Assembly: GCA_017431405.1 (NCBI GenBank)
Contig: JAFRLB010000061.1
Coordinates: forward strand, 1-32,398
Length of the DNA stretch: 32,398 bases
Origin: Erysipelotrichaceae bacterium
GTDB taxonomy: Bacteria; Bacillota_I; Bacilli_A; Erysipelotrichales; Erysipelotrichaceae
Reading direction: 5' to 3'
Within the stretch, counting starts at the first letter, position 1. Each line of letters starts with the position of its first letter. The position numbers and the translations under genes are program-made. Shown here one piece after another: positions 5,077 to 28,657 of the stretch. The notes under the pieces were generated by a model. The model was not told the origin of the DNA. It searched no databases and saw only the letters and a program-made list of their open reading frames with translations.

Positions 5077-5112
5077 CAACGATTATTATTTTATTTTAAC
5101 TATTTTATATAT

Positions 5113-5138
5113 TAAAAAACGCTCCTGTTACGGAGCGT
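5113..5138 (-). terminator. Intrinsic terminator of the rhomboid gene
   Basis: Arms at 5119-5125 and 5132-5138 form a GC-rich 7-bp stem with a 6-base loop. On the minus strand it is followed by six T residues, 27 bases past the rhomboid stop codon. Confidence 0.85.
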
Positions 5139-5164
5139 ATATATTATATCTATAAATATATGTT

Positions 5165-5746
5165 TTACATTGGTTCTTTGTGATAGCTTCTGAAATATAA
5201 GCCGAATGCTGCACCACATATGCCACCGGCAATGTGAGCTAACTGAGAAATGTTATCAGCTGAATATAATGCATCATATACTTCCTGGCCCAGATAGATG
5301 ACCATGACAAGGATCAGGGTCAATGGTATCTGGCCTTTTTCAAAGCTTGTGGCACTTGCCAGTACGATCATCATGAATACAACACCGCTGGCCCCACATA
5401 AGGCAATGTTAGGGAACAGTATGTTATTGGCAATACCACCAATTACTGCTGTAATCAGAATCATCTTCATCAGATTCTTGCTGCCATATTTTTCTTCGAT
5501 CATTGGTCCAAGTAACAGAATGTACATTATGTTACCAAGGAAATGATCCCAGCCGGCATGACCAAATACATATGTTACCAGTCTTAAGTAAGTTAACGGA
5601 TTAAACAGACTGTCATTATAGGTCATGAACAGTAATCTTAAACTATAACCATTTGTCGCATTAGTTAACAGTAAAACCAACAAACAGATCAAAGAGAAGG
5701 TCAGAGTAACAGGCGCATTGTAATCGATGAAAAACTTTTTCTTCAT
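5165..5746 (-). CDS. Rhomboid family intramembrane serine protease
   Basis: Rhomboids cleave transmembrane substrates within the membrane using a Ser-His dyad. The 193-residue product has about six hydrophobic segments. It shows the family signatures in order: HFLGN after the first loop, GASG with the nucleophile Ser120, and the partner His171 in HIAGG. There is no extra domain, so it is a minimal six-helix form. I chose the ATG at 5746 because AGGAAGGTGG lies 8 bases upstream; the in-frame GTG at 5758 falls inside that ribosome binding site. The gene begins 34 bases after the end of tRNA-Val, with no terminator hairpin or promoter visible between them, so the two may be co-transcribed. The substrate cannot be predicted. 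Confidence 0.9.
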   Translation of the reverse strand: MKKKFFIDYNAPVTLTFSLICLLVLLLTNATNGYSLRLLFMTYNDSLFNPLTYLRLVTYVFGHAGWDHFLGNIMYILLLGPMIEEKYGSKNLMKMILITAVIGGIANNILFPNIALCGASGVVFMMIVLASATSFEKGQIPLTLILVMVIYLGQEVYDALYSADNISQLAHIAGGICGAAFGLYFRSYHKEPM

Positions 5747-5780
5747 ATAATCAACCACCTTCCTAAAATAAAAAAAATAA

Positions 5781-5856
5781 TGGTGAGGAGTAAGGGACTC
5801 GAACCCATGACCCCTTCCACGTCAAGGAAGTGCTCTCCCAGCTGAGCTAACCCCTC
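5781..5856 (-). tRNA. tRNA-Val (GAC)
   Basis: The 76-base minus-strand cloverleaf has a 7-bp acceptor stem with one G-U pair and a D arm with GCTC/GAGC. The anticodon stem CTTCC/GGAAG encloses the loop TTGACGT (anticodon GAC), and the T loop is TTCGAGT. The T stem has one T-T mismatch. Discriminator A and an encoded CCA are present. Confidence 0.96.
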
Positions 5857-5871
5857 ACAATTATTGATACT

Positions 5872-5900
5872 ATATTACCACGTTTCTTCTATTTTGTTAA
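5872..5900 (-). promoter_or_regulatory. Promoter of tRNA-Val (and possibly the rhomboid gene)
   Basis: On the minus strand, -35 TTAACA (5895-5900) and -10 TAATAT (5872-5877) are 17 bases apart. The -35 lies in the last codons of the upstream Smr-GNAT gene, so the tRNA can be made independently of it. Confidence 0.6.
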
Positions 5901-6659
5901 TTTAAAATTAGGATGAAACAGTTTTGTTCGCTCATTATAGCTGTCATCAGTCATGACAAAGCCGTTTTTAGCCAGTATTTTACCGAAATACACATTCTCC
6001 GGATTATTGGTAGCGTCTATTTCATTGGCATCAATATAATCAAAGGCATACTGTAAAACTCTTTCAATTGCCTCACTACCAAAACCTCTATTCCAGTATT
6101 CCGGACATACATATACTTCTATTCCATATCTTTTTCTATTTCCCTTTACCGGTATTAAACCACAGGCGCCTAAAAACTCATGCTTATTGGTAAACATTGG
6201 CCAGCATTCAACATGATACTTTGACTCATTGTAGATTTGCTCGTTAAGCTTGGATACAACTTCATCATTACTGACGACATCGGCCAGATACCTGTAAACT
6301 TCCTTGTTCTGCCAAAGTCTCTTAGCCAGTAACAGGTCATTCTTTTCCCATCTGGAAAACTGAATGTTTTCTGACTTCATGAAATACTTTCTGGTATTTT
6401 CCTTATTTACGCTTTTCCTCTGCATCTCTTCCTTATTCTTTAATAAGAAAGTAGTGTCACCGGGATTAAGAGAATATACGATCTTCTTGATTCTGTCATG
6501 CTTGTATTCCTTGCGAACAAAGTCCATCAGAACATGACTGTGATAGCCATGCACAACTAAAAGCTCTGTACATTTCCATGGTAAGGAATCCAGTAAATGG
6601 TTCAGAGCTATCTTACTCTCTATAACTGTCATTTCATGAAGATCAATTCGCTGTTTCAT
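5889..6659 (-). CDS. Smr-like domain fused to a GNAT (RimJ/RimL-type) acetyltransferase
   Basis: Residues 1-72 resemble a small MutS-related (Smr) domain, known for nuclease or RNA-binding roles: IDLHEMTV stands for the usual LDLHGxTV and VVHGYHSHVL for the usual HGxG loop, ending in PGDTTFLL. Residues 95-256 form a GNAT acetyltransferase of the Acetyltransf_3 type, with the acetyl-CoA loop region NRGFGSEA and a C-terminal NPENVYFGKILAKNGF-like segment. This half should transfer acetyl from acetyl-CoA to an amine, perhaps of a protein. AAGG precedes the ATG. The first 17 bases overlap the end of the upstream phospholipase-like gene in another frame, so the pair is probably translationally coupled. 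The fusion is unusual; the GNAT call is firm, the Smr call less so. Confidence 0.85.
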   Translation of the reverse strand: MKQRIDLHEMTVIESKIALNHLLDSLPWKCTELLVVHGYHSHVLMDFVRKEYKHDRIKKIVYSLNPGDTTFLLKNKEEMQRKSVNKENTRKYFMKSENIQFSRWEKNDLLLAKRLWQNKEVYRYLADVVSNDEVVSKLNEQIYNESKYHVECWPMFTNKHEFLGACGLIPVKGNRKRYGIEVYVCPEYWNRGFGSEAIERVLQYAFDYIDANEIDATNNPENVYFGKILAKNGFVMTDDSYNERTKLFHPNFKLTK

Positions 6660-7608
6660 TTTCCTTAAAATATTTCATTTTCTTACGGTAATCCAAACCC
6701 GTATAGAAAGATTCATCATTTATGTAATTCAATAATACCTGACAATCCGTCTTCCCTTCAAGAAAACTGCCAAATAATTCCACTATCTCAACACCGGTAG
6801 CGGTTGCCTTAACTCCCAATTCATAGAAAGAATCATCAGATGTAATTTCTTCATCAGCAGGATTACGCCACTTTCTCTTACCAAAATTCATGGCATCCAT
6901 CCTGTCATCATATTTTTCAGGCAACATCATGCTTGTTGCCAGGCCATTTAAGCCCATTAAAGAATCAAGTTTACCTATGAACCCATGTTTCTTATAATCA
7001 GGATCCCACAACAGCTTATAAACATTAATGAAATCGTTGATGCTATCAACAATCAAGTTTTCACTTATGCCAGCCCCATAGCATCTATCCAACACTGTTC
7101 TGAGCAGTTTGGCGATAGCCTTCTTTTCATTTTCCTTAACCTTTATAAGCTTTTTAGGACAGTAATAACTGGTATCCAGCTTATTATCTGCAATCAGCTG
7201 TTTATCAATTTGCATTTCAAATAAGGCATGCTTATTGCCTGCTTTTTCATTTAAACTTCCGGTTTCATAGAATACATACGGATGAACAGTCTTATCTAAT
7301 GCCCAATGACAATAGTAACCGGCAACATAGGCAACCATCATATCATCATCAATACTGACATTATCCATTAAGGCCTTAAATGATTCATTGATCTTTTCAT
7401 CGTGTAACAGGTCAGCACAGCCACGTACCTTCTTTGTGTTTCTTTTACCTTGCAAAGGCAAACGGTGATACGCAATGAAAATGTCAGGTCCCTGACAGCC
7501 CAGCATGAATACCCCTCTATGCTTCTTGATAATGTTTCTTAGTCTGTCATTAAACAGTCTGGTACTGATCAAGTCACCGTACCAGCAATGAGCAATTATA
7601 TCCGGCAT
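6643..7608 (-). CDS. Zinc-dependent phospholipase C family protein
   Basis: The 321-residue product fits the zinc-dependent phospholipase C/S1-P1-like helical fold: an N-terminal metal-ligand segment (AHCWYGD), a GPD motif near residue 40 and the signature GYYCHWALDKTVHPY near residue 98, whose histidines and aspartate are predicted zinc ligands. Classical family members hydrolyse phospholipid head groups outside the cell. Here no signal peptide is visible, so the protein appears cytoplasmic and the substrate is uncertain. The start is supported by GAGAGG 6-7 bases upstream. It has a strong promoter (7642-7670) and overlaps the downstream Smr-GNAT gene by 17 bases. Confidence 0.85.
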   Translation of the reverse strand: MPDIIAHCWYGDLISTRLFNDRLRNIIKKHRGVFMLGCQGPDIFIAYHRLPLQGKRNTKKVRGCADLLHDEKINESFKALMDNVSIDDDMMVAYVAGYYCHWALDKTVHPYVFYETGSLNEKAGNKHALFEMQIDKQLIADNKLDTSYYCPKKLIKVKENEKKAIAKLLRTVLDRCYGAGISENLIVDSINDFINVYKLLWDPDYKKHGFIGKLDSLMGLNGLATSMMLPEKYDDRMDAMNFGKRKWRNPADEEITSDDSFYELGVKATATGVEIVELFGSFLEGKTDCQVLLNYINDESFYTGLDYRKKMKYFKENETAN

Positions 7609-7641
7609 TTCTACCTCTCAACTTTATATAACACATAAATA

Positions 7642-7670
7642 ATTATAAAAGGAATTTGTATTTCAGCCAA
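7642..7670 (-). promoter_or_regulatory. Promoter of the phospholipase/Smr-GNAT operon
   Basis: On the minus strand, -35 TTGGCT (7665-7670) and -10 TATAAT (7642-7647) are 17 bases apart, about 35 bases before the start codon at 7608. Confidence 0.7.
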
Positions 7671-7745
7671 CTATTGATTATTGATGAACAGAATGAATAG
7701 GGTGAGCTTATGTATGAAATATACAAAAGAAATAGTATTATTTTT

Positions 7746-7765
7746 TGATAGCATTCATGCTATCA
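7746..7765. promoter_or_regulatory. Palindromic operator candidate of the toxin-antitoxin locus
   Basis: TGATAGCAT and its exact reverse complement ATGCTATCA are separated by two bases. The palindrome ends 18 bases before the toxin start and covers the likely promoter: TTGATA at 7745-7750, with an AT-rich -10 region near 7764-7772. Antitoxins of the HigA type usually bind such sites and repress their own operon. Confidence 0.6.
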
Positions 7766-7783
7766 TAATTATGTGCAGAGGTT

Positions 7784-7972
7784 ATGAAGATATTTGAAAT
7801 AATATTTTACCAAACATCTGATGGGCACTGTGAATTCTGGGATTATTTAGGAGATGCGTTTCTTTTGCTGCATCATTTCAGAAAGAGTTCGCAAAAAACG
7901 CCTAAAATGGAGATTCTAAAAGCCCATAAGGAAATAGCCGATTATTCAAAAAGGAAGGATATACAGATATGA
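7784..7972 (+). CDS. Internally deleted HigB/RelE-type (Gp49-like) toxin remnant
   Basis: The 62-residue product joins the two ends of a Gp49/HigB-like toxin. Residues 1-22 match the usual start (EIIFYQTSDG, then DYL) and residues 25-58 match the usual end (LLLHHFRKSSQKTP and a KAHKEIADY helix). The central 50-60 residues, which hold most of the ribonuclease beta-sheet, are missing although the frame is kept. Full-length relatives cleave ribosome-bound mRNA; this form is unlikely to do so. The ATG is preceded by AGAGG at only 2 bases, a poor spacing. Its stop codon overlaps the antitoxin start (ATGA), as in an intact system. The homology is clear by motif; loss of activity is inferred. Confidence 0.7.
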   Translation: MKIFEIIFYQTSDGHCEFWDYLGDAFLLLHHFRKSSQKTPKMEILKAHKEIADYSKRKDIQI

Positions 7973-8262
7973 AGGCCTGGAAACAATACAAGCAATACTT
8001 TAAAGACATAAGCGACACTGACAAAGAAGACATGGAATATATCGACAGTATATCCTCTATCATCAGTTCAGTGATAAGCCAGAGAATGGAAACAGGTCTT
8101 TCACAGAGAAGTCTCGCAGAAATATGTCAGATTCCACAATCTACATTGGCTAGAATTGAATCATACAAGACAATACCTAACCTGGAAACGCTTCTTAAAA
8201 TAATGCGACCTCTGGGACTTACATTAACTGTATCTGCAATTAATAGTAATGCAGACATGTAA
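7969..8262 (+). CDS. XRE-family antitoxin (HigA-like)
   Basis: The 97-residue product has a helical N-terminus (1-35) and an XRE/Cro-type helix-turn-helix at about residues 37-90, with GLSQRSLAE and PQSTLARIE as turn and recognition helices. HigA-type antitoxins bind their toxin and repress their own promoter. AAGGAAGG lies about 9 bases before the ATG, and the start overlaps the toxin stop by four bases. The gene looks intact although its toxin partner has lost its core, so it may persist as a DNA-binding repressor or as an antidote to related toxins elsewhere. The probable binding site is the palindrome at 7746-7765. Confidence 0.88.
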   Translation: MKAWKQYKQYFKDISDTDKEDMEYIDSISSIISSVISQRMETGLSQRSLAEICQIPQSTLARIESYKTIPNLETLLKIMRPLGLTLTVSAINSNADM

Positions 8263-8263
8263 C

Positions 8264-8290
8264 GCAAAAAATAGTAGTGTTTCCACTACT
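8264..8290 (-). terminator. Intrinsic terminator of the P-type ATPase-like gene
   Basis: On the minus strand, AGTAGTG and CACTACT (8273-8279 and 8284-8290) enclose a GAAA tetraloop and are followed by ATTTTTT. The TAG stop codon (8286-8288) lies inside the stem. Confidence 0.8.
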
Positions 8291-10187
8291 TCAGTTTTGA
8301 GGCATTCAGTACTGCCAGTACTGTAACAATGGCATCTATGCAATAGATCAGCCATAACGGTATCATTTCAATGAAACCGAGTACTATCAGTACTATTTTT
8401 ATTAAGGCACATAAGAGTATTGTCCAGGTAACATTTCTGCATGTTCTTCTGGCAATCTTACGTCCCTTTACCAGTCCTTCCAGTGATTCATACATCAGTA
8501 TTACATTACTGTTGGCAAAGGCACTGGCTGAATTCTTAACACCCATTGATATGCCCAATGTTGCGGTATCAAGAATCGGCTTATCCTTTTCACTTTCACC
8601 AACATAGGCAACATCTCTGCCCTGTCTTTCAAACAGCACGATCTTATCGATCTTATCCTGCTGGCTCATCTCACCAAATACGGCACTTAAGTTATAAACC
8701 TTCTTATAGCTTTCCAGTTCTTCCTGACTGTCAGCGCCAAATAAGGCAATGTTATTAACTTCCTGTTTCTTTAAGTCATTGACATGCTTGACAGCTTCTT
8801 CCTGACTGTTGTCTTCAAATAATACTGCACCAAGGTAGTTTTCCCTGTCACATACATAAACGGCGTTCTCCAGACTTTCATCAAGATTCTTTACCTTTAA
8901 CTGCTTCATGTATCTTAAGTTACCGATATGATACTGCTTACGGCCATATCTGGCACTTACACCCAGACCTGGCTCAACGGTAAAGTTATGAACCTTGGAA
9001 GGATCATAATTAATGTTCTGACTTTCAACAATTGCCTTGGCTAATTCATGATCACTATAGCTTTCAATTGCCGTAACGATGGTCATGAATTCATTCTCAT
9101 CCATCTCGGTCTTGATTTCTCTGACAATATACTTATCCTTTTTCAGGGTATCATTCTTATCAATGACCAGATAGTCAAATTCATTTAACAGTTCCAGATA
9201 TCTGGCTCCCTTAACCAATACACCGTTAGTCGCTGCCTTGCTGGTTCCGCAATAGAATGCCAGCGGGATAGAAAGTAACAGAGCCAATGGATAACTTATT
9301 GCCAGTAAGCAACAGGAGGCAAAGATGCTTTGCTGGTAAGTGGTATTCATGGCTGTAGGGCCTAATATTGAGTATCCTATTGCCACTATAACAACTGTCG
9401 GCGCAAAGAACTTATTGAACTTATGCAGGATCTCTTCAGCCTTGCTGTGAGACATCTTGCATTCACTTACTACTTCATTAATACGGCTGATGGTTGATTC
9501 TTCAAGTGTTCTGATGGCTTTAACAGTAATGGTATTACCGACGTTAACACTGCCGCCGGTAAGTACATCACCAACATGCACTTCTACTGGTTTCTTCTTA
9601 TTGTTCAGACTTCTGACGGAAATGATGGTATCACCTTCTGTGATGATACTGTCTACCGGTATTCTTTCATTATTATTAACCTGCAGTAACATTCCTTCAG
9701 TGATCTTATCATTACCAATGTTCATAATCTGGCCATCCTTTGACCAGTGAGCAGCAAACTTTACAGGTGTACTATTTAAGTTGATTTTATTCTTTATACC
9801 GGTAATAAACGTTCTGCAGAAATACTGGCACAGGCGGTATAACCAGATGACGATTACGGCGTCAAATCCCTTATCAATGTAGAAACAAGGCAAGGTAGCC
9901 AGCGAAATAAGTACTGAGCCTCTGTTAAGTCTGAACTTGATAATTGATTCATAGGCATCGATGATGATGTCATAGCCGCTTAGCATGTAACTTACAGCCA
10001 TGGCAATGTTATAAAAGTCACCTTCTAAGAAGAATACGGCCACCAGGAAAAAGATTACCGCAATAAGTAACCTTATTATTACTCCATCATTTTCAACAGT
10101 TACTTCATTATCAAATGACAAAAAGTCAATTGAACTGTTTTTTTCAATTTTCTGTGTCATTTCTGAAGTGTTTACCTGTTCTGTCAT
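8286..10187 (-). CDS. P-type (P1B-like) ATPase homologue with degenerate catalytic motifs
   Basis: The 633-residue product has heavy-metal P-type ATPase architecture: paired N-terminal helices, actuator domain (about 135-235), two central helices, phosphorylation/nucleotide domain (about 335-560) and two C-terminal helices. It lacks a metal-binding N-domain. The catalytic motifs differ from consensus. DKTGT is DKNDT (D343 kept), the actuator TGE is NNK (195-197), the CPC ion site is YPL (299-301), the HP of the nucleotide domain is HE (380-381), and GDGxND is GESEKD (530-535). GLGV and HIGN are kept. The frame is intact and the gene has its own promoter and terminator, so it is probably a functional protein with altered or no pumping. 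I chose the ATG at 10187 because GGAG lies 8 bases upstream; the TTG at 10211 precedes that site. Confidence 0.88.
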   Translation of the reverse strand: MTEQVNTSEMTQKIEKNSSIDFLSFDNEVTVENDGVIIRLLIAVIFFLVAVFFLEGDFYNIAMAVSYMLSGYDIIIDAYESIIKFRLNRGSVLISLATLPCFYIDKGFDAVIVIWLYRLCQYFCRTFITGIKNKINLNSTPVKFAAHWSKDGQIMNIGNDKITEGMLLQVNNNERIPVDSIITEGDTIISVRSLNNKKKPVEVHVGDVLTGGSVNVGNTITVKAIRTLEESTISRINEVVSECKMSHSKAEEILHKFNKFFAPTVVIVAIGYSILGPTAMNTTYQQSIFASCCLLAISYPLALLLSIPLAFYCGTSKAATNGVLVKGARYLELLNEFDYLVIDKNDTLKKDKYIVREIKTEMDENEFMTIVTAIESYSDHELAKAIVESQNINYDPSKVHNFTVEPGLGVSARYGRKQYHIGNLRYMKQLKVKNLDESLENAVYVCDRENYLGAVLFEDNSQEEAVKHVNDLKKQEVNNIALFGADSQEELESYKKVYNLSAVFGEMSQQDKIDKIVLFERQGRDVAYVGESEKDKPILDTATLGISMGVKNSASAFANSNVILMYESLEGLVKGRKIARRTCRNVTWTILLCALIKIVLIVLGFIEMIPLWLIYCIDAIVTVLAVLNASKLK

Positions 10188-10217
10188 TGTAGTAACTCCA
10201 ACCTCTGTCAATTTTAA

Positions 10218-10246
10218 ATGATATAGTATTATTCAAATCTTTGCAA
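10218..10246 (-). promoter_or_regulatory. Promoter of the P-type ATPase-like gene
   Basis: On the minus strand, -35 TTGCAA (10241-10246) and -10 TATCAT (10218-10223) are 17 bases apart, about 30 bases before the ATG at 10187. Confidence 0.6.
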
Positions 10247-10247
10247 C

Positions 10248-10278
10248 TAAAAGAGCTGTAAGCACTTGCCTACAGCTC
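10248..10278 (-). terminator. Intrinsic terminator of the nitroreductase gene
   Basis: On the minus strand GAGCTGTA and TACAGCTC (10271-10278 and 10253-10260) form an 8-bp stem extended by three inner pairs, followed by TTTT. The TAG stop codon (10270-10272) is part of the hairpin. Confidence 0.8.
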
Positions 10279-10785
10279 CTTAAACATCTCTTCTCTTGGA
10301 ATTCTCTTGGTATGATTGGGTGCCGGAACACTTGTTTCTGCAGCGTAACCTACTGGTAATAACATTATAACCTGTTCATTTTCCGGTAATTCAAATGCTT
10401 CATGAGCCTTGCTTGGTGCAAACCAGCCAACCCAGACACTGCCTAAGCCTAAACTTGCAGCTTCAAGCATCATGTGGTCACAAACGATTGATGCATCCTG
10501 AGTGCCTGAAGTAATTTCTTCTTCCAGATCATTATGCCATTCCTTATTCTTATCAACGGCGATCATGAATACGACAGGAGCGTTGTAGGCACATCTGGTA
10601 ACGTCTCTGATCTTCTGAATTGCTTCTTCACTCTTTAAGACATAGACTTTTACAGGCTGGAAATTCTTAGCTGAAGGAGCTGCCATTCCTGCCGCAATGA
10701 TCTTGTCCAGTTTTTCCTGTTCAACAGGTTTGTCTGCGAAATTTCTTACTGAATATCTTTCCTTTAACAGTTCTAATAATTCCAT
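10270..10785 (-). CDS. Nitroreductase family FMN-dependent oxidoreductase
   Basis: The 171-residue product is a small nitroreductase-like flavoprotein that should bind FMN and use NAD(P)H to reduce nitro groups, quinones or similar acceptors. The N-terminal FMN phosphate motif is present as R10, S12 and R14 (ERYSVRNF), followed by MAAPSAKNFQP. The helix SIVCDHMMLEAASLGLGSVWVGW is split by the usual AA-x-LGLG pattern, and PVGY lies near the C-terminus. Its length is at the short end of the family. AAAGGA precedes the ATG. It is monocistronic, ends in a hairpin terminator, and its probable -10 overlaps that of the divergent tRNA-Thr. The physiological substrate cannot be read from sequence. Confidence 0.92.
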   Translation of the reverse strand: MELLELLKERYSVRNFADKPVEQEKLDKIIAAGMAAPSAKNFQPVKVYVLKSEEAIQKIRDVTRCAYNAPVVFMIAVDKNKEWHNDLEEEITSGTQDASIVCDHMMLEAASLGLGSVWVGWFAPSKAHEAFELPENEQVIMLLPVGYAAETSVPAPNHTKRIPREEMFKEL

Positions 10786-22883: not shown

Positions 22884-22911
22884 AAAGGATAAGCTTACTG
22901 CTTATCCTTTT
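22884..22911. terminator. Bidirectional intrinsic terminator
   Basis: AAAGGATAAGC and GCTTATCCTTT (22884-22894, 22900-22910) form an 11-bp perfect stem directly after the esterase stop codon. The TAA stop of the convergent ABC gene (22895-22897) lies in the 5-base loop. The T-run is short on both strands. Confidence 0.8.
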
Positions 22912-24733
22912 CACTCATTTGTTTTAAAGCCTTGGAGAACTGAGTCTCATATAATTCAGTATATACTCCTCCAGCCTTTACCAGCTCATCATGAACGCCT
23001 CTTTCCACGATCTGGCCATCCTTTACAACTAAAATTTCATCAGCTGACAGGATGGTTGATAATCTATGAGCAATCAGAATGCTGGTTCTTGATTCAATCA
23101 ACGGATCAATGGCTTCCTGAATCTTACTTTCAGAAATTGAGTCCAGAGCACTTGTTGCTTCATCAAATATCAACAATGCCGGATCTCTTAATAAGATTCT
23201 GGCGATGGAGATTCTCTGCTTCTCACCACCTGATAATTTCAGACCTCTGTTACCTACCATGGTATCTAATTTGTTTTCCTGGCTCATGACAAAGTCATAG
23301 ATGTTGGCCTTCTTTAATGCTTCTTCTATTTCCGCATCTGTTGCATCAGGTTTGGCATATAACAGGTTCTCCTTAATTGTGCCGTTGAATAAATATGTTT
23401 CCTGAGTAACAACACCGACATTACTCCTTAAGTAACCTAAGTCCAGATCTCTGACATCAACACCATCGAATTTAACACTTCCACCGGTAACATCATAGAG
23501 ACGAGGGATCAGATTTACCATGGTGCTCTTACCTGAGCCTGAAGGACCAACAATGGCAACACTGTTACCGCTCTTTAATTCAAAGCTGACATTCTTTAAG
23601 ATCTGTCTGGTTTCATCGTATGAGAAGTCTACATTTTCAAAAACGACATTGCCATAGGCCTTTTCCGGTATGACAGGATTCTCCTTGTTCTTTACTTCAA
23701 CAGGCATGTCATAGTATTCGAAGATTCTGGTAAATAAAGCCATTGATCTGATCCACTCAACCTGAATGTTGAGCAGTGAGTTTACCGGTCCATACATTCT
23801 GCCTAATAATGATACTAAGACGGTAATGTCACCTACGGTCAGATCAGCGTCATATTTCATCATTAAAATGCCGCCAACCAGATATAAAGCCATAGGTCCG
23901 ACTGATGATAAGGTACTTAAGACAACTCTGAACCATCTGCCGGCCATGCTCTCCTTAATGTTGAGTTTTACCATCCTGCCATTGGCAGCTTCATATTTCT
24001 CATATTCATATTTTTCCTTGCCAAACAGTTTTACCAGCAACTGCCCACTGACAGATAATGTTTCATTTAACAGGCCATTAACTTCATCATTAACTTCCTG
24101 TGCTTCTCTGGTTAATTCCCATCTGGTCTTTCCAGCACTTCTGGTTGGAATCGTAAATAAAGGAACAATTAAGATACCAATGGTAGCCAGAACCCAGTTT
24201 TTCTGATACATGGCAATTACTGCCACAATTAAAGTCATTGAATTAGATAATATGCTGGAGAAGGTATTGGCTATGGTTGACTGCACACCGGAAATATCTG
24301 AAGTCATTCTGGTAATGATGTCACCCTGATTATTAGTAGTAAAGAAGCGCTGGGACATCTGCTGTAAATGAGCATACATCTTATTACGCATGTCATAGGT
24401 AATGTGCTGGGCGATCCAGCTGTTCAGATAGCTTTCCAGAACACCGATTACTTCTGCACCAACGGTTACTGCCAAAAACAGTATTATCAGTTTGACCAGT
24501 ATGTCAAGATCTCTGCCAATGAGACCTTCATCTATGATTCTACCGGTAAGAACTGTCGGTAGTAATCTTAGGGCAGATGAAATGAGAATACAGCCCAAAG
24601 CCAGTATGAGCTGTTTCCAATATGGTTTAAGATAACTGAAAACACGTATCAGCAACTCCTTTGTTACTTTCGGTTTATTGGCCTTTTCTTCCTCGGTCAG
24701 ATAACCGCCTCTCATTCCTCTTGGTCCTGGCAT
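22895..24733 (-). CDS. ABC exporter, fused membrane and ATPase domains
   Basis: The 612-residue protein is a type IV (MsbA/BmrA-like) half transporter: six membrane helices (about 40-340) followed by an ATPase domain with Walker A GPSGSGKST, signature LSGGEKQR, Walker B LLIFDEATSALD with the catalytic glutamate, and the switch histidine in IAHRLST. All motifs are canonical, so a homodimer can be active. The start at 24733 has GAGGAGA upstream; the open frame reaches 24910, but that part lies over the preceding gene and has no site. It follows the BmrC/BmrD-like pair after 67 bases that include a terminator, so it is expressed either by read-through or from an unseen promoter. Substrate unknown, probably a drug or lipid. 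Confidence 0.93.
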   Translation of the reverse strand: MPGPRGMRGGYLTEEEKANKPKVTKELLIRVFSYLKPYWKQLILALGCILISSALRLLPTVLTGRIIDEGLIGRDLDILVKLIILFLAVTVGAEVIGVLESYLNSWIAQHITYDMRNKMYAHLQQMSQRFFTTNNQGDIITRMTSDISGVQSTIANTFSSILSNSMTLIVAVIAMYQKNWVLATIGILIVPLFTIPTRSAGKTRWELTREAQEVNDEVNGLLNETLSVSGQLLVKLFGKEKYEYEKYEAANGRMVKLNIKESMAGRWFRVVLSTLSSVGPMALYLVGGILMMKYDADLTVGDITVLVSLLGRMYGPVNSLLNIQVEWIRSMALFTRIFEYYDMPVEVKNKENPVIPEKAYGNVVFENVDFSYDETRQILKNVSFELKSGNSVAIVGPSGSGKSTMVNLIPRLYDVTGGSVKFDGVDVRDLDLGYLRSNVGVVTQETYLFNGTIKENLLYAKPDATDAEIEEALKKANIYDFVMSQENKLDTMVGNRGLKLSGGEKQRISIARILLRDPALLIFDEATSALDSISESKIQEAIDPLIESRTSILIAHRLSTILSADEILVVKDGQIVERGVHDELVKAGGVYTELYETQFSKALKQMSEKDKQ

Positions 24734-24776
24734 AATTGTATCTCCTCGTTTTTTGTTTCTATTTAAATACATTTTA

Positions 24777-24803
24777 ACAAAAAAAGGCTGTAAAACAGCC
24801 TTA
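24777..24803 (-). terminator. Intrinsic terminator between the ABC genes
   Basis: AAGGCTGT and ACAGCCTT (24784-24791, 24795-24802) form an 8-bp stem; seven T residues follow on the minus strand. The TAA stop of the upstream gene (24801-24803) overlaps the base of the stem. Confidence 0.82.
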
Positions 24804-26879
24804 ATTATTTGAATATAACTGTAATTCGTACAGTTTTTTGTAAATGCCATCCTGAGCAAGTAACTGCTGATGGGTTCCGCTTTCTCTGATTTTACCCTTA
24901 TGCATGACAATTATGTTGTCGGCATGCTGAATGGTTGATAGACGGTGAGCGACCATGATGGTGGTTCTGCCTTCCATCATTGTCTTCAGTGCTTTCTGGA
25001 TCAGCTGTTCGGTTTCCGTATCAATGTTAGCGGTTGCCTCATCCATTACCAGGATCTTAGGATCAATCGCCAATGTTCTGGCAAAGCTTAACAGCTGACG
25101 CTGACCGGCTGACAAGGTTGAACCTCTTTCCGTAACAGCCTCATCATATTTATTCGGCAGACGGTCAATGAAGTGGTTCGCATTTACCGCAATGCTTGAT
25201 TCAACGATCTTCTGATCGCTGATATTTTCATTTAACAGACGGATGTTTGACTTGATGTCACCGGTAAAGATGAAGACATCCTGCTGAACCTGACCGATTG
25301 CTCTTCTGATCTGTTCAGTTGAAAGTTCCTTGATGTTGACATCGTCAATCAGGATCTCACCCTTCTGAATTTCGTAGTATCTACCAATCAGATTCAGAAT
25401 TGAAGACTTTCCAGCACCTGTTGCCCCAACAAAGGCAACCTTTTCACCCGGATTAATGATGAATGATACATCTCTTAAGACATATTCTTCATCATCATAG
25501 GCAAACCAGACATGTCTGAATTCGATCTTGCCCTTTACTTCAGGTAAAATTACAGGTTCATCCAGTTCCTTGATTGGATTTGTTTCATCCATCAGGGTAA
25601 AGATCTTTTCCGCAGATGCGAAGGCATTCTGTAAAGTTGAGAACTGTTCTGTTAATTCCTGAATAGGTTCAAAGAATGAACGGATGTAACTTGTAAAGAT
25701 ATACAGTGTACCAACCGTCAGGGCTCCTTCCAGTACTGAATGAGCTCCCTTATACAGCACGATTGCCAAAGCAAAGTTGGCCGTAAAGTTAATTAATGGA
25801 CGGAAGATCGCAAATACCATGATCTCTCTCATTCTGCTTCTGAACAAGTCTTCAGTGCTTTCAGAGAACTGTCTGTATTTTTCCTCTTCTCTGGCAAAGA
25901 TCTGAATCAGCTTCATGCCGGAAATGTGTTCACTTAAGAAAGTGTTCAGGGCTGAAACCTTGGTTCTGATCATACGGTAAGTCTTACGGCTTATCTTGGT
26001 AAATAAGGCAGTAATAACTACCACAAACGGTAATAATGCCATAGAAACCAGAGCCAGCTTGAAGTTCAGGGAAAACATGACAGTGGCATAGCCAATGATC
26101 ATGACCGTATTTCTGACCAGGTTTACGATGACATTGGAATACATCATGTTTAATGATTCAACGTCATTGGTAACTCTGGTTACGATTTGGCCTACCGGAT
26201 GAGTATCAAAGAATCTCAAAGGCAGGGAGTGAATGTGCTCAAAGATCTCGTTACGGATGTTATAGATGATTCTCTGACCGGCTGACTGTAAGATCAGGGT
26301 CTGAGCAATGTTACATAAGGCGTTTACCAGTAATACGACCGCATATAATATTGCGATGCGCTTTACACCATCATAGTCAGTCTGTCTTAACAGCTTCAGT
26401 TCTTCCTTATCCAGAACCTTGCCGGTGTACTGGTTTCCCTTTTCACTGACAACTGTCAGAGTTTTATCATCCTGACTTACAATGTTAAGTTCATCATCAC
26501 TTACAGCCTGTAATTCGGCGGACTTCTCTTTGGTCAAGTCAGTATACAGATAGTACTTATCGCCATCATATAACATCTGGGCATAGCTGTCATAGTTACT
26601 GTTTTCAAAGTCTATGCTCTTGCTCAGATACAGACCATTGTATTCAATTTCAGCCTCTTCCTTACTTACATAGGCATATGGTAAATCGTAGCCTTCAATG
26701 TAGGTGTCCATTGCCCGGGCAATGAGCATTGGCTGAATCAGGGCAAAGCCTGATACTAACAGTACCAGAAGCAGTGCAATAATGAAGTTCTTAAGGTAAG
26801 GCTTCATGTAGGCAAATAATCTGGAATACAGCTTGCCGTGATAAGAGGTAATGACTTGTTCTTTTTCAATCTTAGCCAT
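24801..26879 (-). CDS. Heterodimeric ABC multidrug exporter subunit, BmrD/YheH-like, with extracellular insert
   Basis: The 692-residue half transporter has six membrane helices and a C-terminal ATPase domain with Walker A (485-492), signature LSAGQRQL (589 on), Walker B ILVMDEATANID with catalytic E614 and HRLST. Between helices 1 and 2 there is an extra 100 or so residues (about 64-163), polar and rich in Tyr, Asp and Lys. In the Bacillus heterodimer BmrCD, subunit BmrD carries such an extracellular domain, and its variant signature LSAGQ pairs with the degenerate site of the partner; both features are seen here. GGAGG lies 7 bases before the ATG at 26879; the GTG at 26885 is too close to it. 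It starts 11 bases after the BmrC-like gene. Confidence 0.93.
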   Translation of the reverse strand: MAKIEKEQVITSYHGKLYSRLFAYMKPYLKNFIIALLLVLLVSGFALIQPMLIARAMDTYIEGYDLPYAYVSKEEAEIEYNGLYLSKSIDFENSNYDSYAQMLYDGDKYYLYTDLTKEKSAELQAVSDDELNIVSQDDKTLTVVSEKGNQYTGKVLDKEELKLLRQTDYDGVKRIAILYAVVLLVNALCNIAQTLILQSAGQRIIYNIRNEIFEHIHSLPLRFFDTHPVGQIVTRVTNDVESLNMMYSNVIVNLVRNTVMIIGYATVMFSLNFKLALVSMALLPFVVVITALFTKISRKTYRMIRTKVSALNTFLSEHISGMKLIQIFAREEEKYRQFSESTEDLFRSRMREIMVFAIFRPLINFTANFALAIVLYKGAHSVLEGALTVGTLYIFTSYIRSFFEPIQELTEQFSTLQNAFASAEKIFTLMDETNPIKELDEPVILPEVKGKIEFRHVWFAYDDEEYVLRDVSFIINPGEKVAFVGATGAGKSSILNLIGRYYEIQKGEILIDDVNIKELSTEQIRRAIGQVQQDVFIFTGDIKSNIRLLNENISDQKIVESSIAVNANHFIDRLPNKYDEAVTERGSTLSAGQRQLLSFARTLAIDPKILVMDEATANIDTETEQLIQKALKTMMEGRTTIMVAHRLSTIQHADNIIVMHKGKIRESGTHQQLLAQDGIYKKLYELQLYSNN

Positions 26880-26890
26880 GTTCACACCTC

Positions 26891-28657
26891 CTAGTTAGCC
26901 TGAGCCAGCTGTTTTTCCAGCTGCTGCTTACGTACCATGCGGGCAAACTGACCGTTCAGGGCAACTAATTCATCATAGGTACCGTATTCGATCATCTTAC
27001 CATTATCCAGAACAATGATGTGATCAGCGCTCTGAACCGTAGAAACACGGTGAGCGATCATGATCGTTGTCTTGCCCTGTCTTATCTGTTTCAGGTTATG
27101 AAGAATGTTATCCTCAGTATCCGTATCAACGGCACTTAAGGAGTCATCCATGATCAGTATCGGGCTGTCCTTTAGGATGGCTCTGGCAATTGAAGCTCTC
27201 TGCTTCTGACCACCTGATAAGGTAACGCCTCTTTCACCAACCATGGTTTCATACTTTAATGGGAAGTCAGCGATGTTATCGTGAACATCGGCAACTTTAC
27301 ATGCCTCAATTATTTCATCCATCGTAGCGTCCAGCTTACCGAATGAAATGTTCTGCTTCAATGTTTCAGAGAACAGGAAGTTATCCTGAGGAACATAGGC
27401 AATGTTTTCTCTTAACACTTTTAATGGAATCTGCTTTATGTTGTGGCCGTCAAAACTGATGGAACCATCCGTAACGTCAAACAGTCTGGTCATGAGATTT
27501 ACCATCGTTGTCTTACCGGCACCGGTACGTCCCATGATGGCGAATGTCTCACCCTGCTTTATTTCAACGTTGATATCTTCCAAAGCATATGGGAAGTCTT
27601 CACGGTATCTGAAATCAACGTTTTCAAACTTTATTTCACCCTTTAACTCTGTTACATCATCAGGATGTTCGCTGTCAACGATCTCAGGAATCTCATTAAA
27701 GGCGTTATTGATACGCTTCATGCCGGCGTAACCTAAGGTAAATGTAGTAATACAGTCACCGAATGCCAACATTGGCCATACCAGTGTACCAACATAGCTT
27801 GAGAAGGTTACCATCTTACCTAAGGTAATTTCACCTATTAAGCAATAGTAGCCGCCAAATAAGATGGCGATGACGAAGGCAACGCCAATGAATATTTCCA
27901 TTACCGGCCAGGCATACGCTCTTAATCTTACAACCTTCATGTTGATCTGACGGTTGGATTCGTTGGCCTTCTTGAAGTTTTCCAGCTGTTCCTCTTCCTG
28001 AACAAAGGCCTTTATTACTCTTTCAGCAGAAATGCTTTCCTGAACAACATCACTTAACTTGGCAAATGATTCCTGCCTCATTTCAAAATGCTTGTCAAAG
28101 GCCTTGAAGATGTTATAGCCGTAAATGCCGACACCGATCATTGGCAAAATGGTATATAAGGTCAGAGTAACACTTACATATGTCATCATTCTGTAAAGAC
28201 ACATGATGGTCAATACGATCGCATCAAAGGCTGAGATGATGCTCCAGCCAATTGCTTCTCTGATGGCGTCAAGGTCGTTTGTGAAATAAGCCATTAAGTC
28301 ACCGGTCTTGTTCTCATTGTAGAAACGCTGAGACAAGGTTTCCAGTTTGGCAAAGATGTCATTCTGTAAGGCATGTTCGATTTTTCTGGATGTACCAATG
28401 ACAAAATACCTGTACGCAAAACGTCCCAAGGACAAGGCAGCGGCACAGGCCAACATTTTCAATATAATTGATCCTATCTCCTCTGAATTAATGGTATGGG
28501 AAGCCAGGCCATCGGTTATCTCGCCGGTAAACTGCGGCAGATAGAGGTTAAGATAGTCTACGATAAGCAGTATGACAATACCTATGAAATACAGGTGCTT
28601 GTATTTCCACAGATAATGGAATAATCTGTTTGGTTCCTTCTTTTTATTCACAAACAT
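26891..28657 (-). CDS. Heterodimeric ABC multidrug exporter subunit, BmrC/YheI-like, with degenerate ATP site
   Basis: The 588-residue half transporter has six membrane helices (about 20-310), Walker A GRTGAGKTT (376-384), canonical signature LSGGQKQR (480 on) and Walker B LIMDDSLSAVD, where the catalytic glutamate is replaced by D505. This is the hallmark of the non-hydrolysing site in heterodimeric exporters such as BmrC, LmrC and TM287. It should pair with the product of the next gene. The ATG at 28657 directly abuts GGGGG; the GTG two codons later (28651) has that site at 6 bases and may be the true start. No BmrB-like leader peptide or attenuator is seen in the 93 bases upstream. Confidence 0.93.
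   Translation of the reverse strand: MFVNKKKEPNRLFHYLWKYKHLYFIGIVILLIVDYLNLYLPQFTGEITDGLASHTINSEEIGSIILKMLACAAALSLGRFAYRYFVIGTSRKIEHALQNDIFAKLETLSQRFYNENKTGDLMAYFTNDLDAIREAIGWSIISAFDAIVLTIMCLYRMMTYVSVTLTLYTILPMIGVGIYGYNIFKAFDKHFEMRQESFAKLSDVVQESISAERVIKAFVQEEEQLENFKKANESNRQINMKVVRLRAYAWPVMEIFIGVAFVIAILFGGYYCLIGEITLGKMVTFSSYVGTLVWPMLAFGDCITTFTLGYAGMKRINNAFNEIPEIVDSEHPDDVTELKGEIKFENVDFRYREDFPYALEDINVEIKQGETFAIMGRTGAGKTTMVNLMTRLFDVTDGSISFDGHNIKQIPLKVLRENIAYVPQDNFLFSETLKQNISFGKLDATMDEIIEACKVADVHDNIADFPLKYETMVGERGVTLSGGQKQRASIARAILKDSPILIMDDSLSAVDTDTEDNILHNLKQIRQGKTTIMIAHRVSTVQSADHIIVLDNGKMIEYGTYDELVALNGQFARMVRKQQLEKQLAQAN

Follow-up and report, generated by a model that had tools for sequence, protein, structure and literature searches.

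The 32,398-nucleotide stretch of DNA analysed here (the window), from an uncultured relative within the Erysipelotrichaceae, encodes on its reverse strand (8286..10187) a 633-residue P1B-type ATPase that has lost its dephosphorylation glutamate and metal-binding cysteines and is nonetheless maintained under purifying selection. We consider it probable that this protein is a maintained pseudo-pump: a nucleotide-binding and possibly autophosphorylating membrane regulator or sensor, or a partner subunit. The components of this reading differ in strength; from sequence comparison, nucleotide binding is likely, autophosphorylation is possible, transport is unlikely and the case for excluding metal pumping is strong, and it is the specific role as a membrane regulator or sensor that we infer from the overall pattern. 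Underlying it are a full-length reading frame, conserved synteny, losses that are shared between diverged lineages, purifying selection, a predicted P-type fold, a retained nucleotide pocket and phosphorylation core, and a shift of constraint to the nucleotide-binding (N) domain.

The gene boundaries in the original prediction (8286-10187) hold, as the whole reading frame (8286..10211, reverse strand) is open and the preferred start is the ATG at 10187, with a GGAG approximately 10 nucleotides upstream. E1-E2_ATPase is the sole Pfam domain to pass in the product (E 3.3e-27), and the best NCBIfam model, TIGR01525 (heavy-metal P-type ATPase), scores 291 bits, below its cut-off of 346. The expectation of an intact fold is borne out by an AF2 model (mean pLDDT 81.5, pTM 0.71), confident except for the first 32 residues, which together with Pfam predicts a P-type fold comprising the A, P, N and M domains. 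P1B pumps are its best matches in the PDB (7r0g at the top, Z 33.4 over 596 residues, rmsd 10.3; 4umv, Z 23.2 over 550 residues, rmsd 9.1); these best matches include E1 states, and the predicted conformation was left out of the evidence. That the promoter and terminator are intact, as had also been proposed, is not established because neither scan beats shuffled sequence: a terminator-like 7-bp hairpin and T-run lie by the stop codon at the 3′ end (8273..8290, reverse strand) and a promoter-like TTGCAA-17-TATCAT lies upstream (10218..10246, reverse strand), the latter a mere consensus match, and in both scans such sites are no more numerous than in the shuffled controls.

Orthologues were found solely within the organism's own genus of gut bacteria (Erysipelotrichaceae MAGs); wider searches, of 273 genomes from the family, 316 from the order and 392 from the phylum, brought no clear addition. 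The degenerate form is known from four MAG-derived genomes that fall into two close pairs, the lineages being 49–50% identical: this genome (G000) with G007 (a match to a roe deer jejunum MAG; 96% identical to the 633-residue protein), and G005 with G006 (both ~50% identical to it). A further entry, L034 (JAFUCG010000059.1), apparently duplicates the G007 genome, and the two were counted once. Normal-motif orthologues, 35–38% identical, occupy the same syntenic site in G002, G003, G004 and G008. Both forms share the gene order nitroreductase, ATPase, Zn_dep_PLPC and Smr/GNAT, anchored on the reverse strand of the window by the nitroreductase upstream (10270..10785), the Zn_dep_PLPC-family protein downstream (6643..7608) and the Smr/GNAT protein (5889..6659), the last of which is an anchor in all nine genus members; this synteny covers the downstream side alone for G002 and G003, and the downstream side of G007 lies on another contig. 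An assembly or contamination artefact is ruled out, given that four genomes share the degenerate gene in this syntenic position. The site is closed in G001, where the nitroreductase and PLPC genes lie 18 nucleotides apart and the ATPase is absent. An ArsR-family gene directly precedes the pump in G003, G004 and G008, and none lies between the nitroreductase and ATPase genes of the pseudo-pump genomes, in which a regulator missed by annotation was also ruled out. Two of the normal-motif loci encode a pump with a strongly His-rich N-terminus, and the G002 contig is cut just upstream.

Among the 273 family genomes, the sole matches from outside the genus to pass at 1e-80 (G100, G131, G151, G253 and G254) share 28–30% identity, no closer than the canonical paralogue described below, and those that entered the tree were placed outside the clade of pseudo-pumps and orthologues. 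The window also contains a toxin–antitoxin-like pair (7784-8262, forward strand) between the pseudo-pump and the Zn_dep_PLPC gene; its toxin-like gene (Gp49-like in G007, L062 530-901) is shortened here by an in-frame internal deletion of 61 residues, and its HTH partner is intact. Further along (22895-28657, reverse strand) are three successive genes, each encoding both an ABC transmembrane domain and an ATPase domain.

In the phylogeny, the pseudo-pumps and the normal-locus proteins form one clade (100/100) in which the four pseudo-pumps constitute a single branch (100/100) on a long stem; the tree program warns that long branches may mislead, and synteny agrees with the tree. This combination of shared synteny and clade membership with normal-motif orthologues supports descent from P1B-2-like pumps. 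Given that an IleS tree likewise groups the four pseudo-pump genomes (89/97), a single origin of the pseudo-pump within the genus is the simplest reading. The isoleucyl-tRNA synthetase frame of G001 (L065, ~5078-7834) is interrupted by an in-frame TAG, a candidate assembly error or a real interruption.

The original prediction called for a search for a canonical paralogue, and one was found: in all four genomes with the degenerate form, a separate contig encodes a canonical zinc/cadmium-type P1B ATPase and an ArsR regulator, flanked by ileS on one side and by an rRNA methyltransferase-like gene on the other. That site is present without an ATPase in G004 and G008; the absence of a second ATPase is weaker in G002 and G003, because both genomes are incomplete. 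Since the degenerate form and the canonical ATPase–ArsR pair coincide in four of four genomes, redundancy is a plausible trigger for the loss of the pumping motifs. We propose that, in the ancestor of these genomes, the native Zn/Cd-type ATPase would have been redundant beside the second ATPase–ArsR pair encoded elsewhere, would then have lost its own ArsR regulator together with the elements that metal transport and dephosphorylation require, and would have been retained in degenerate form for a different job.

Every altered motif named in the original prediction is present when the protein is aligned to canonical pumps. The actuator TGE, the dephosphorylation motif of P-type pumps (PMC5428812, PMC8880997), is NNK (residues 195–197; 9597..9605, reverse strand, as are all positions in this paragraph) and is NGV in the G005/G006 lineage; the CPC metal site is YPL in all four pseudo-pumps (299–301; 9285..9293); DKTGT is DKNDT (343–347; 9147..9161), which has lost TG and retains T347 and the phosphorylatable D343; HP is HE, with the His retained (380–381; 9045..9050); and GDGxND is GESEKD (530–535; 8583..8600), in which the first Asp is Glu and the second, D535, is retained. 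Beyond that list, SGD/TGD is GAD, PxxK is QxxK with the catalytic K512 retained (8652..8654), and the metal-entry glutamates are lost. In ZntA-type pumps zinc is bound by C392, C394 and D714, E184 and E214 form the entry funnel, E202 aids release and K693 serves as the counterion (PMC6305203, PMC8880997); the pseudo-pump lacks the equivalents of E184 and E214, has Asp and not a neutral residue at the E202 position, and retains K597 (8397..8399; the K693 equivalent, a built-in counterion) and D618 (8334..8336; the D714 equivalent). The conserved catalytic motifs of the P-type superfamily (DKTGT, TGE and GDGxND) and the M4 CPC of P1B-2 pumps are therefore all missing in intact form, and the M5 Lys and M6 Asp of P1B-2 pumps are present. 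Derived states common to both pseudo-pump lineages include C299Y, C301L, A101C, T293C and G532S. In three of the four normal-motif orthologues (L038, L039 and L041) the actuator loop reads NGE at the TGE position, possibly a first stage of erosion or a change that is tolerated.

What survives is equally specific. The protein retains D343, T347, K512, D535, E375, H380, G407, G409, G422, N423, K597 and D618, including the pocket glycines and Asn of GLGV ... GN (407–423; 8919..8969, reverse strand), and D343, T347, K512, D535, E375, S378, H380, G407, G409, G422, K597 and D618 are invariant in all 31 aligned proteins. The losses first described are thus real, but the statement that most signatures had gone is too strong in view of the 12 named residues that are kept. 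All six of the nucleotide-pocket residues checked survive, in contrast to the metal cysteines and the dephosphorylation Glu. Ten of 11 core ATP and phosphorylation residues are kept, versus two of nine dephosphorylation and metal-path residues (p 0.005), although these sets are a choice: the former omits K344, T345, G346, G485, D486 and P381, which are changed in one or both lineages and whose inclusion weakens the contrast. The pseudo-pump would thus still bind nucleotide and may autophosphorylate on D343, and it would be unable to finish the transport cycle because the TGE glutamate and CPC cysteines are gone.

Motif loss, a long stem branch, redundancy with a canonical paralogue and the complete absence of the ATPase from the corresponding site of G001 are what might be expected of a decaying pseudogene whose frame has not yet broken. 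We regard this explanation as very improbable, however, and it is already contradicted by the dN/dS values, which are 0.059 (95% CI 0.034–0.091) for the G000–G007 pair and 0.065 (0.040–0.098) for the G005–G006 pair, well below 1. The canonical, active-type paralogue has values of 0.057 and 0.041, with overlapping confidence limits. Neither of these independent pairs shows a stop or an indel at an observed dS of 0.28–0.36, whereas in neutral simulations at 0.05 substitutions per site a stop arises in 95% of runs; moreover, the core is conserved across the two lineages despite their divergence. Normal-motif homologues in close relatives, combined with neutral evolution, had been named as the signature of decay: the relatives do have normal motifs, yet evolution here is not neutral. 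The proposal of a maintained pseudo-ATPase is accordingly upheld as to its maintenance, and its inactivity is deduced from the residues lost.

The distribution of constraint along the protein has also shifted. The N domain (~residues 361–454; 8826..9107, reverse strand) is the best-conserved part between the pseudo-pump lineages, at 66% identity versus 48% for the rest of the protein, whereas it is the less conserved part in canonical pairs (67% versus 80% elsewhere for the second ATPase; 45% versus 58% and 60% versus 71% for normal orthologue pairs). The interaction p-values range from 2.4e-5 to 1.1e-4, for a comparison that was picked after viewing the data and that assumes independent columns. 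Preservation of the ATP-binding domain above all, together with loss of the pumping parts, points away from a decaying gene and towards a probable role as a membrane regulator or sensor, and the evidence favours retention for a function that centres on the cytosolic headpiece. The metal or redox sensor first suggested is not established, the conserved part being the nucleotide-binding domain. More tentatively, and with somewhat less than even confidence, we suggest that a former P1B metal pump now serves as a membrane signalling protein that depends on nucleotide or on phosphorylation, in which the headpiece would have become the functional part and the ion path would be freed from constraint.

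Part of the permeation path does survive, in the form of K597, D618 and the Asp that takes the place of E202, which raises the alternative of a pump with altered chemistry, in which D343 is phosphorylated, dephosphorylation is slow or proceeds via another residue, and YPL with D109, K597 and D618 carries another substrate, such as H+ or a small molecule. Retention of D343, K512 and D535 and the very low dN/dS of the M3–M4 segment containing YPL within the pseudo-pump pairs (0.009 and 0.024) are compatible with this idea. We nevertheless judge it unlikely, and the original suggestion of a pump with a new mechanism is disfavoured, because both lineages have lost the dephosphorylating glutamate and the metal cysteines without a shared acidic or thiol replacement; in addition, SGD is lost, the first hinge Asp is Glu in the G000/G007 lineage, and M5–M6 identity between the lineages is only 26%, whereas the canonical paralogue has 89%, and a conserved transport site would not be expected to diverge in this way.

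On the favoured reading, the pseudo-pump would act as a membrane-anchored switch that depends on nucleotide or phosphorylation; alternatively, it may be a partner subunit that touches another protein through its N and P domains. No partner gene emerged, and the genes around the locus occur in every lineage, even in G001, which lacks the ATPase. As a special case of the pseudoenzyme reading, the protein might be a partner that regulates or inhibits the cell's own canonical Zn/Cd-type ATPase, which is present in all four pseudo-pump genomes. P1B pumps are generally considered to function as monomers, however, and G001 has a related canonical ATPase without a pseudo-pump, and we give this version a low probability. 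In its favour, dead paralogues that regulate active ones are described for other enzyme families (PMC5201418, PMC3663545).

Taken together, a single locus in one genus offers a natural series comprising a normal pump, a maintained pseudo-pump in two diverged lineages and a clean loss. It shows what a P-type ATPase can do without, and what it retains, once pumping is dropped, and is directly testable. Pseudoenzymes are well documented among kinases, proteases and other enzymes. In one open library, we found no paper that names a pseudoenzyme among the P-type ATPases, nor any in which the terms "P-type ATPase" and "pseudoenzyme" occur together. The closest known systems are the P1B-2 (Zn/Cd) ATPases, such as Shigella ZntA (4umv/4umw) and CadA, with which the pseudo-pump shares fold, domain order, the M5 Lys and M6 Asp, the phosphorylatable Asp and the nucleotide-pocket residues; unlike them, it lacks CPC, TGE and SGD, has a degenerate GDGxND and scores under the family cut-offs. 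The normal-motif orthologues of G002, G003, G004 and G008 share its synteny and clade, but have canonical motifs. Regulatory pseudoenzymes such as the prozyme of AdoMetDC (PMC5201418) and the iRhoms (PMC3149277) resemble it in having lost catalytic residues and kept the fold, often beside an active paralogue, although they belong to enzyme families unrelated to P-type ATPases. The P4-ATPase-like domain of Plasmodium GC-alpha (PMC7858053) is likewise a P-type ATPase module tied to signalling, but it is of the eukaryotic P4 type, is fused to a cyclase and is reported to need its catalytic Asp (PMC7858053).
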